In this document: positions 4,295 to 20,190 of the stretch, in pieces
How the letters are laid out: each line of letters starts with the position of its first letter
Position numbering within the stretch: position 1 is the stretch's first letter
NCBI RefSeq assembly: GCF_005405585.1
Contig: NZ_BJEQ01000018.1
Coordinates: forward strand, 1 to 64,000
From: Agarivorans sp. Toyoura001
GTDB taxonomy: Bacteria > Pseudomonadota > Gammaproteobacteria > Enterobacterales > Celerinatantimonadaceae
Reading direction: 5' to 3'
Length of the DNA stretch: 64,000 nt
Program-made: the position numbers and the translations under genes
Notes under the pieces: generated by a model
What the model saw: the letters and a program-made list of their open reading frames with translations, nothing else
What the model was told of the DNA's origin: nothing
The model's database searches: none

Positions 4295-4334
4295 TAATAT
4301 CTCTTAATGAGGCGAGCAAATAAACCAATGCACA

Positions 4335-4482
4335 AACGCCGCTCACCTCTTAATAGCGTTAATGTGCAGTTGGTCTTGCCAGGCCTAACTAGGCTGCATT
4401 TACCATAGTGATTGTGCACTAAGTATGTTGATAAATGCCCCGCAACCAAAGTTACAGGCGGCTACTCCCCAAAAGCGCGCAG
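4335..4482 (-). promoter_or_regulatory. yybP-ykoY manganese riboswitch upstream of mneA
   Basis: Read on the minus strand, the leader contains the conserved class features in order: GGGGAGTAGC (4461-4470), the loop motif CAAGACC (4372-4378) and the closing strand GAGGTGAGCGGC (4338-4349). These are the two Mn2+-docking legs of the yybP-ykoY aptamer. Downstream, GCTCGCCTC (4309-4317) can pair over nine positions (one G-U) with GAGGTGAGC (4341-4349). The alternative helix would lie next to the ribosome site of mneA and is a plausible expression platform. Mn2+ would favour the aptamer and turn export on. The motif match is direct; the switching mechanism is inferred. Confidence 0.9.
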
Positions 4483-18581: not shown

Positions 18582-18952
18582 GATGGTCTCATTGTATTAG
18601 TGAATTACCTATAAGACGAACCAGATAAGAAAAAGACGAAACTAATTTTAAAAAGTTTTTGTGGCATAGATAAATGAAGGAGGGAGCGGGGGAGGTATCA
18701 GTTGCAAAGCTTGCGGGAGCTATGTGATTCAGCTCGATAACGCATTACTGCTTTCTCGAAAGTCCTCCCGACCATCCAACTTTGATTAGGCGAGTGAACC
18801 GCAATTTCCCTGTGATTGTATACAGGTAAACGGCCATTCCTCCTTTCCCAAGTATTTGCATCCTTTTCTGCTGATGTTTTTGTTGATTGTTGTCTTAGGT
18901 CGCTGATGATACGAGGGGAAAGTGTTAATCTTCACTTCATTAAATGCGTAAA
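18582..18952. other. gene-free stretch upstream of the integron cassette
   Basis: No credible gene is seen. The only open frame (18816-19007, 63 codons) has no ribosome site, has unusual composition and runs through the palindrome at 18953-18994, so I reject it. The stretch should contain the promoter of the minus-strand GST gene at its left end. A purine-rich patch near 18676-18695 resembles one near 29449-29477. Confidence 0.6.
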
Positions 18953-18994
18953 AAGAGGAAAAATGCCTTGTTTAAACAAGGCATTTTTCCTCTT
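18953..18994. terminator. 42-bp perfect palindrome, bidirectional terminator-like
   Basis: Bases 18953-18973 and 18974-18994 are exact reverse complements. The core is AATGCCTTGTTT with A5 on the left and T5 on the right, so each strand reads as a strong hairpin followed by T. No gene clearly ends here on either strand. The element stops 9 bases before the left end of the integron cassette. Confidence 0.75.
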
Positions 18995-19003
18995 AATAAG
19001 TTG

Positions 19004-19945
19004 TTAGAGCTACACCAGAGGTCGGAGTTAAATGGCACTATATCAAAGCTATGCTAAAGAGCTAATGAGTAAGTTAGGGCGATTAAACGATCTTGTTGGT
19101 CATGCTCCTTCCATCGGCACATATCACGAAAACATCGTTGGAAATTACTTAAGAAATTTTATCTCTCGACGGTTCTCAATCAAAACAGGGTTTGTTTACA
19201 ACTCAGTAAGCAATGAAGTAAGTCCTCAAATGGACATATTGGTGATTGATGAAAATGTACCTTCAGCCTATCTCTTTCAAGATGATGATTTTGTAGTTGC
19301 TGTTCCAGATGCTGTTGTATGCGCTATAGAAGTAAAAACAAATTTTGATAAAGAGGCTTTTCTAGATATAGCAAAAAAATCAGAGCAGTATAGAAAATCA
19401 AACCCAACAGGATTTAATATTTTAGCGCTATGTTTTAAAGCTAAAGTGGTACAGATTGAAACAGTGGCTAGTTGGTTTGAAAGTGTAGACATTAAAGATT
19501 CGTGGCTTAATTATCCTAAGAGCATCACAATATTGGATGATTGCTTAATTGAATCATTTCCTCCTCAATCGGTTCAGCCCTCTGGGGCATGTCGCACTGT
19601 ATGTAATGATGATGTCGAGGAGAAATCCGAAGCATTGTTAACGCATTTTTTGTTTTCGGTATTGAAGCTCTGTGAATTAAAAGCGGGAGTAAATAGCGAC
19701 AGAACAATTGGCGCTATATTTTCAGGGGATTTTGATAAATTATTTACGTTAAAGCACAAAGTGTTTAAGTATGGGTCAGGTATGCTTGAACTAGAAAAAC
19801 TAAATCGTTCTGACGGTTCAAATATTTATTCCAGACCTGAAGAAAAGTAGCTCTAACAAGTCATTTCAGCAGGACAAAAAACAGTTGGTTTTTGCTCGTG
19901 CCTCGCTTATTTTAACCAACTATTTTATTGCCTCTGAATGAGGCG
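19004..19945 (+). mobile_element. solitary integron gene cassette
   Basis: The left junction is G^TTAGAGC (19003-19010). The exact reverse complement GCTCTAAC (19850-19857) starts the attC that follows the single gene, as expected when a circular cassette recombines inside its own attC. The right junction is GCG^TTGAT at 19943-19950. The cassette is 942 bp, holds one gene in the usual orientation starting 28 bases from its left end, and is more AT-rich than its neighbours. No integrase, attI or second attC is seen here, so it is an isolated cassette rather than a working integron. Confidence 0.85.
19032..19850 (+). CDS. DUF6602-like protein, possible PD-(D/E)XK nuclease fold
   Basis: 272-residue cassette-borne protein without a signal peptide. 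The first 105 residues fit a restriction-endonuclease-like core: helix with E33 (YHENIVGNYLRNFI), then D68 (SPQMDILVID), then E100-x-K102 (CAIEVKT). This spacing of acid, acid, E-x-K is the PD-(D/E)XK signature; similar N-terminal domains are annotated DUF6602. Residues 110-272 are helical and unassigned, ending in a cassette-typical short tail. A GGAG ribosome site precedes the ATG. Stop codon and attC overlap by one base. A defence or DNA-processing role is plausible but not shown. Fold assignment is by eye. Confidence 0.75.
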   Translation: MALYQSYAKELMSKLGRLNDLVGHAPSIGTYHENIVGNYLRNFISRRFSIKTGFVYNSVSNEVSPQMDILVIDENVPSAYLFQDDDFVVAVPDAVVCAIEVKTNFDKEAFLDIAKKSEQYRKSNPTGFNILALCFKAKVVQIETVASWFESVDIKDSWLNYPKSITILDDCLIESFPPQSVQPSGACRTVCNDDVEEKSEALLTHFLFSVLKLCELKAGVNSDRTIGAIFSGDFDKLFTLKHKVFKYGSGMLELEKLNRSDGSNIYSRPEEK

Positions 19946-19951
19946 TTGATA
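19850..19951 (+). other. attC recombination site of the cassette
   Basis: Features in order: R'' GCTCTAAC (19850-19857); L'' TCATTTCAG, which pairs with L' CTGAATGA (19934-19941) leaving one extra base, the extrahelical base characteristic of attC; an inner stem GTTGGTT / AACCAAC (19884-19890 and 19914-19920) around a variable loop; R' GCGTTGAT at the right end. Length of about 100 bases is typical of Vibrio-like sites. Folding and pairing were checked by hand. Confidence 0.88.
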
Positions 19952-20190
19952 TGATCCCCGCTGTCAACTCGCACAAGTCTATTCCTACCGATTGACATCT
20001 GCATAGAAAAACTCAATGAGAGGCCCATGGCAAGCATGTGTCGCGATGCTTCTTGTTGATATTGGAGAAAGAGTGCGAGCTTGGTTACCCGCAACTCATT
20101 GTTGAAATAGTTTGCTTCTGCACTGGATTGAGCTGCTTTGCCTCCGTTTAGGTACGCGATTTTTTTTCCAATAAACCTCACCACAATCTA
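19952..20190. other. gene-free stretch right of attC
   Basis: No convincing gene. The minus-strand frame 19912-20184 (90 codons) crosses the attC site and lacks a good ribosome site, so it is treated as spurious. I found no second R'' matching the right junction (ATATCAAC), so the stretch is not an obvious second cassette. Confidence 0.6.

Follow-up and report, generated by a model that had tools for sequence, protein, structure and literature searches.

The integron cassette found in this stretch of Agarivorans sp. Toyoura001 DNA (64,000 nucleotides, analyzed in full and called the window below) appears to sit on an orphan platform: an attI site that has no adjoining integrase gene, holds one cassette, and belongs to a dispersed family of sites that would be loaded in trans and would have spread through loss of intI. 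We give this reading a probability of roughly 0.8. It is carried by the attC site of the cassette, by the identity of the left flank as attI and the dispersal of that attI through the genus, by differences in cassette content between orthologous sites, and by one cassette whose copies at an orphan site and in an integrase-bearing array do not differ.

Seven genomes of the genus were compared (G000, the window genome, which has 4.65 Mb in 54 contigs, to G006; L numbers label loci). G007 is a genome from the sister genus. Five family genomes outside the genus were also searched. A search in the seven genus genomes shows that the window region is built of dispersed repeats, namely, repeat A, found genus-wide (about 18804 to 19006), the attC, and repeat C (about 19946 to 20163), all in window numbering. 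The features are listed in Table 1.

Table 1. Features of the cassette locus, in window numbering
Feature	Position	Strand	Basis
attI-alpha copy, orphan (without adjoining intI), repeat A	18804..19003	+	Genus-wide copies; adjoins intI-alpha in G002 and G006
LexA-box-like CTGT-N8-ACAG, left end of attI region	18810..18825		Sequence; same place as the box upstream of intI
42-bp perfect palindrome, end nine bases before crossover	18953..18994		Sequence; covariation in 18 copies
attI crossover G^TTA, left cassette boundary	19003..19004	+	Homology among copies ends; complement of R''
Integron gene cassette	19004..19945	+	Boundary complementarity, attC model match, comparison with other copies
Cassette ORF, 272 aa, DUF6602, PD-(D/E)XK/NucC-like nuclease domain	19032..19850	+	Pfam, PADLOC
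attC site, R'' 19850-19857 to R' G19945^TT	19850..19952	+	Covariance model, 85.1 bits; fold z, -3.2
Remnant of IS110-family IS end, R' side of attC	19946..20163	+	Repeat at seven other aligned places

One cassette and one attC site in the window

The left junction of the cassette reads G19003^T19004TAGAGC and the right junction reads G19945^TTGATAT. The R'' box GCTCTAAC (19850 to 19857) is the exact reverse complement of GTTAGAGC at the cassette start, and the claim of the initial annotation that G^TTAGAGC is exactly complementary to R'' is therefore borne out by direct reading. Since Rfam at its thresholds gave no attC match in the window, we trained our own covariance model on 13 attC sites taken from related loci, leaving out the window attC. 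Across the whole 64 kb, at E values up to 1, this model returned a single match, which is the window attC (85.1 bits; E of 1.4e-20, where E values are rough). The bottom-strand fold of this 103-base site (-15.5 kcal/mol; z of -3.2) has an outer stem and an inner stem as well as unpaired bases, and 1 of 200 shuffles folds equally well. The sole Rfam match in the window is a manganese (yybP-ykoY) riboswitch at 4309 to 4472 on the minus strand (61.4 bits).

The covariance-model check that the initial annotation had proposed thus recovered the window attC, and the model match and the fold agree with its description of a genuine attC with paired arms and an inner stem. It had also stated that the window holds neither an integrase nor a second attC; in our searches, the covariance model found no second attC in the 64 kb, and profile search found no integron integrase there. 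For the rest of the genome, where a check for intI had been suggested, the answer differs: an integron integrase is encoded at G000:C23:2197-3129 (439.7 bits), the only one in this genome above the integron cutoff of 265. The description of the cassette as solitary is misleading: although the window holds one attC, the site is one of 13 attI copies listed in the genome, several of them partial.

The cassette ORF starts 28 bases past the crossover. It matches Pfam PF20247 (E of 3.9e-18) and the PADLOC profiles PD_DExK (4.4e-21) and NucC (4.1e-13), and no NCBIfam match was found at 0.01.

Right flank of the cassette

Repeat C occurs at seven other aligned places, is 77 to 84% identical there, and in every case starts with TTGATATG after GGCG. 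GGCG thus precedes repeat C in all eight aligned copies, as it would at an attC R' box, and the window copy is a remnant that contains no ORF. In G006, the ORF that follows repeat C carries PF02371 and PF01548. We considered and rejected this repeat as the end of the integron itself, because the PF02371/PF01548 ORF in G006 marks it as an IS110-type end. Other sequences that start right after attC R', GTTGGTATGACTCCCC and GTTGAACAAGCCCGATGC, recur at several sites in the genus (L089, L120, and L129) and are perhaps further attC-targeting IS elements.

Clean edges had been predicted at 19003 and 19945. The left edge does fall at the crossover, but on the right an IS110-type remnant stands at the attC end. 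A clean empty site lacking exactly 19004 to 19945, which had been proposed as a comparison in close relatives, was not found, and the stretch absent from G001, G002, and G006 is larger. These three genomes carry the same GST gene as the window, without attI-alpha beside it; for the GST-gene flank, no match was found in G003 or G005 and a weak one in G004. The window attI copy is a member of no ortholog group.

Left flank of the cassette

All seven genus genomes carry copies of repeat A (5 to 11 entries each), and a single copy occurs in one of the five other family genomes. The aligned copies are alike over about 200 bases that end in ...AATAAGYTG^TTA and diverge beyond that point, with the exceptions of L130 and L139, which also have their cassettes in common. 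In G002 and G006, the A block sits directly between intI-alpha and the first cassette, whereas intI-alpha and the A block of G004 and G005 are split by an element that encodes an ISL3-type transposase. Among 295 genomes of the order, at least two outside the family match A at E <= 1e-8 across the palindrome and the junction; with two candidates scored per genome, sites may be missed. In one of these, Thalassotalea algicola (G233), the A core TAATAAGCTG^TTA immediately adjoins intI, and the second (G291) has a similar palindrome and a LexA-like box. In a Colwellia metagenome-assembled genome (MAG) whose integrase is 58% identical, TAATAAGCTG^TTA occurs at the same place beside intI, without the palindrome. 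Because A adjoins intI in the genus and its core adjoins intI in Thalassotalea and in the Colwellia MAG, we conclude from these homologies that repeat A is attI-alpha and not a secondary site. The window platform therefore has an attI homologous to intI-adjoining sites, yet no intI lies beside it. The idea that the flanking repeat is a plain terminator was rejected, since the repeat adjoins intI.

The palindrome was aligned in 18 copies (17 from the genus and 1 from Thalassotalea). In this alignment 91.4% of cells pair, 5 of 18 pairs are changed on both sides, and the covariation score was reached by 0 of 500 shuffles, which ignore relatedness. The palindrome is an add-on of some lineages. The CTGT-N8-ACAG box was recognized by its likeness to the LexA consensus. 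The intI genes of G002 and G006, and those of the beta type described below, have an upstream box at the same position. Among 50 alpha copies, the box is exact in 22, has at most one substitution in 30, and has two or more in 20. At L120 and L128 (in G004 and G005), an ISL3-type IS interrupts the LexA-like box between intI-alpha and attI, and the integrase promoter may have been lost through this IS in both genomes.

A second attI type and the integrases of the genus

The attI of the beta integrase, which is the window genome's own, is distinct in sequence from alpha, and neither search recovers the other type. Beta copies without intI are found in G000 (two), G003 (four), G004 (one), and G005 (four, one of them partial), and beta copies adjoining intI are found in G000, G002, and G005. 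Beta copies have a palindrome just before G^TTA as well, in two main versions with matched changes.

At E <= 1e-60, ten integron integrase genes were detected in 6 of the 7 genus genomes, and none was detected in G001. Alpha integrases, which are 97 to 98% identical to one another, are encoded by G002, G004, G005, and G006, and beta integrases (93 to 99% identical) are encoded by G000 (one), G002 (one), and G005 (two). Two further types, one each in G003 and G006, are 41 to 47% identical to the rest. Among the integrases found, the alpha type is absent from G000 and G003.

Census of attI sites, cassettes, and attC sites

The seven genus genomes have 72 listed attI copies of the two sequence types, partial ones included, and 8 of these belong to intI. 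Each genome has 8 to 13 listed copies (again including partial ones), most of them without intI. Two partial copies, G000 C23:45005 and C4:79306, were counted only in the list of 72, and a beta locus that bears two labels, L140 and L184, was counted once. The 6 of 56 alpha entries that do not reach the junction were excluded from the cassette test, which starts at the G^TTA crossover and requires an exact R'' octamer and at least 10 outer stem pairs. A cassette was recognized in this way at 33 of 50 attI-alpha copies (window included) and at 10 of 14 attI-beta copies, versus 54 of 1312 control GTTA positions. The test failed at 17 alpha and 4 beta copies; the junction at L131, which was misparsed in this loosened version, counts among the failures. 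The stricter version used first, and later loosened, recognized a cassette at 25 of the 50 alpha copies and 9 of the 14 beta copies versus 11 of 1314 controls. Alpha copies empty of any cassette were looked for by eye, but at none of the 50 that reach the junction does right-end sequence follow directly. A cassette chain finder, which allowed one mismatch and stopped at eight cassettes, counted 2, 3, 5, and 8 cassettes in the four intI-alpha arrays. At the 46 orphan alpha sites, it counted none at 13, one at 13, two at 14, three at 4, five at 1, and eight at 1.

The attC model recovered at least 118 attC sites from the seven genomes, where 150 of about 1600 to 1850 candidates per genome were scored and sites may be missed. 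Among the matches listed, 75 of these 118 have an attI on the same strand no more than 8 kb upstream (about 1 is expected by chance), and there is no attC whose only attI within 8 kb is on the wrong side or strand. The 13 training sites are all among both the 118 and the 75; when they are set aside, the corresponding figure is 62 of 105 among the matches listed. On the same basis, no listed attI is near 43 of the 118 attC sites, and no modeled attC is within 8 kb of 31 of the 72 attI copies. In the window genome, 8 of the 15 modeled attC sites among the matches listed are downstream of an attI, on the same strand, and within 8 kb. The other 7 of these 15 matches (G000:C36, C8, C5, and C23:58223) have no listed attI nearby, and the context of the C36 attC is cut off because C36 is a 4-kb contig.

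First-cassette ORFs number 62, including that of the window, and 44 of them were scanned; the other 18 comprise 8 on the other strand, 6 with an unclear attC, 3 that are short and far from the junction, and 1 duplicate. Pfam recognizes 21 families in at most 22 of the 44 proteins, including AbiH (2), HEPN_AbiU2, DndB, and DUF6602. PtuA, dCTPase, PDC-S21, and PD-Lambda-1 are among the 25 of 128 PADLOC families listed for these ORFs.

Cassettes differ between orthologous sites

Ten groups of orthologous alpha sites were built from conserved flanks, giving 42 pairs. Both flanks are kept in 33 of the 42 pairs, with 68 to 96% identity on the left and 82 to 96% on the right; in at least one such pair, L102/L121, the right block is probably a repeated element, and 8 of the 33 pairs come from a locus that carries intI-alpha in four of five species. 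The first cassette is common to none of these 33 pairs. Among 40 copies, attI identity is 0.895 between orthologous copies (23 pairs) versus 0.784 between copies in the same genome (97 pairs). The higher identity between orthologs argues that the sites descend vertically while the cassettes change. Between G001 and G002, the conserved right flank picks up again at the R' box (GGCGT[C/T]AATAAACAATAG).

One 510-bp cassette of G006 is present both at an orphan site (C2, first position) and in the intI-alpha array (C1, second position), and the two copies are identical from G to TTA and not beyond. The 8 attI-alpha copies of G001 hold cassettes that differ from those in its relatives, yet this genome is integrase-free at E <= 1e-60. 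Since G001 has no integrase at this threshold and G000 and G003 have no alpha integrase, present-day genomes do not all show the means for service in trans.

Shared ends and proposed spread of the platforms

G005 has two intI-beta units that lie in unrelated flanks and are 99% identical between positions -1385 and +4 relative to the crossover. At the left, these units end in TAACTCGAAATTGCCCC; some orphan copies have a similar left end (TAACTCGTTTATGCCCC, L125), and an inverted TAACTCGAAATTGCCCC-like sequence is seen at right ends past the last attC (TAACTCATTTTTGGAC in L096, L129, L130, and L179). The 16-base end pattern occurs 10 times in the seven genomes, and its reversed control occurs once. 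Of the 10 occurrences, 5 are at ends of listed attI units, and a sixth, in G003, was judged by eye to end another attC array. G005 and the sister genus genome G007 have in common, within unrelated flanks, an A unit complete with cassettes and both ends, at about 96% identity (left end 88%). At G000 locus L090, which is orthologous to the intI-alpha locus, the flank blocks and attI are kept and intI is lost. By tblastn, no intI remnants were found at orphan copies; at L127 and L187, it detected distant recombinases (27 to 31% identity) further off. In the window, a search that allowed up to 3 mismatches found no end repeat. The few copies in which both ends are present show, by eye, no target duplication. 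At L130 and L129, which were searched for empty sites and target duplications, the flanks are too variable for a clear reading, and no clean empty site was found. The shared end motifs suggest that the platform spread as a terminal-repeat element with intI-less derivatives. This step has only moderate support, because neither a target duplication nor a transposase was identified.

Several attI-alpha copies are preceded by R260, a tandem repeat of about 260 bp that contains inverted repeats; it is found at L110 (G003) at about 2120 to 2870 and also at L096, L112, L113, and L119. R260 has the end motif TTTTTGCCCC...GTGTTA as well and is perhaps another derivative of the same element family. By eye, the rare end motif is also present without a recognized attI at L191 (G000:C1:199014), L192 (G000:C21:59620), and L194 (G006:C5:39411), where it may mark further elements. 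At L193 (G006:C3:337087), also by eye, an end motif stands by the right flank of L096 (G001), with different cargo. The left and right flanks of L129 (G005) match different places in relatives, which suggests a rearrangement between dispersed platforms.

Discussion

We propose that the dispersed alpha and beta attI copies serve as fixed docking sites, at which an integron integrase encoded elsewhere on the chromosome would insert and exchange cassettes in trans. Judging from its LexA-like box, the integrase is probably SOS controlled. The copies may have spread, after loss of intI, as derivatives of a platform that consists of an end repeat, intI, attI, the array, and a second end repeat. The window genome has lost the alpha integrase and keeps only a beta integrase, and the window site may therefore be frozen. 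The fullest version of this account is a distributed integron, in which intI-less derivatives of a terminal-repeat platform seeded one chromosome with many attI sites, of two types, that are trans-loaded by one or two SOS-controlled integrases; we judge that it could with equal chance prove right or wrong.

Complete units might instead have been acquired repeatedly, each then losing its intI, with the cassettes arriving separately, which would amount to CALINs (clusters of attC sites lacking an integrase) with a leftover attI. The clear loss of intI at L090, the two complete intI-beta units in G005, and the A unit common to G005 and G007 in unrelated flanks are all compatible with such decay. 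We nevertheless consider it unlikely, given that tblastn finds no intI remnants at orphan copies and that an identical cassette is present at two sites of G006. Moreover, orthologous copies whose flanks are 94 to 96% identical differ in their first cassette, which argues that cassettes changed after the sites were in place. The initial annotation had offered a remnant of a larger array or the edge of a CALIN as explanations. These came nearer to the present reading but missed the presence of attI and the turnover of cassettes between species at orphan sites.

Its remaining suggestion, insertion at a secondary site, is unsupported because the left boundary copies a genus-wide attI. Stated in full, this alternative places an attG-like insertion after a terminator-like repeat that belongs to a small RNA or terminator family. 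That repeat A is dispersed and ends in a strong palindrome resembling an intrinsic terminator would fit, but A adjoins intI in two genomes and its core adjoins intI in two other genera, the cassettes begin at an identical base across copies, and the second attI type behaves alike; we regard this alternative as very improbable. Least probable of all, in our judgment, is that homologous recombination between attI repeats or array segments made the cassette differences, with little role for IntI. Although the 200-bp repeats supply homology and the L129 flanks come from different places of relatives, the two copies of the cassette common to two sites of G006 agree completely between the G and the TTA of its junctions and not beyond, and cassettes start at the same base in aligned copies. 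We therefore prefer the orphan platform loaded in trans.

Integrons are usually described as having one integrase, one attI, and one array. Sedentary chromosomal integrons share with the present system an intI with a LexA-like box, an attI, attC cassettes, and the G^TTA crossover, whereas here there are many chromosomal attI sites, most of them without intI. In attG-type integration, a cassette enters a secondary site far from intI. The window cassette is likewise distant from intI, but its left junction is a conserved attI homologue. MITE-like nonautonomous elements have end repeats and include shorter copies without the gene of the longer copies. Here too, at several sites outside the window, end repeats flank shorter copies that lack a gene carried by longer ones; unlike in MITE-like elements, no target duplication or transposase was identified, and the core is a recombination site.

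The name attG is used in PMC12901181. CALINs, as presented in PMC9024848, resemble the window in having attC without an integrase nearby, but the present system includes an attI, and its cassettes vary between orthologous sites. By default, IntegronFinder 2.0 reports a CALIN from two attC sites up (PMC9024848), and the window, with one attC in 64 kb, is below this threshold. According to PMC11187229, the IS1111 family elements ISKpn4 and ISPst6 target attC. The right flank of the window is similar to these in involving an IS110-family transposase and an insertion at one attC end; it differs in holding a remnant end only, and the likeness is drawn at the IS110/IS1111 level.

The cassette, attC, attI, LexA-controlled intI, CALINs, and IS elements at attC are already known parts. 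Among titles and abstract openings from the open-licence literature, we found no prior account of dispersed orphan attI sites as separate platforms. If trans action is confirmed, a genome with many dispersed attI sites that serve as separate platforms would apparently be new. Software that seeks intI and attC clusters would be expected to report only fragments of such a system. If this reading is true, integrase-free single cassettes would be explained as attI borne rather than as accidents, attI x attC exchange in trans would become testable in nature, and the system would show a route to cassette placement at many fixed loci instead of one array.
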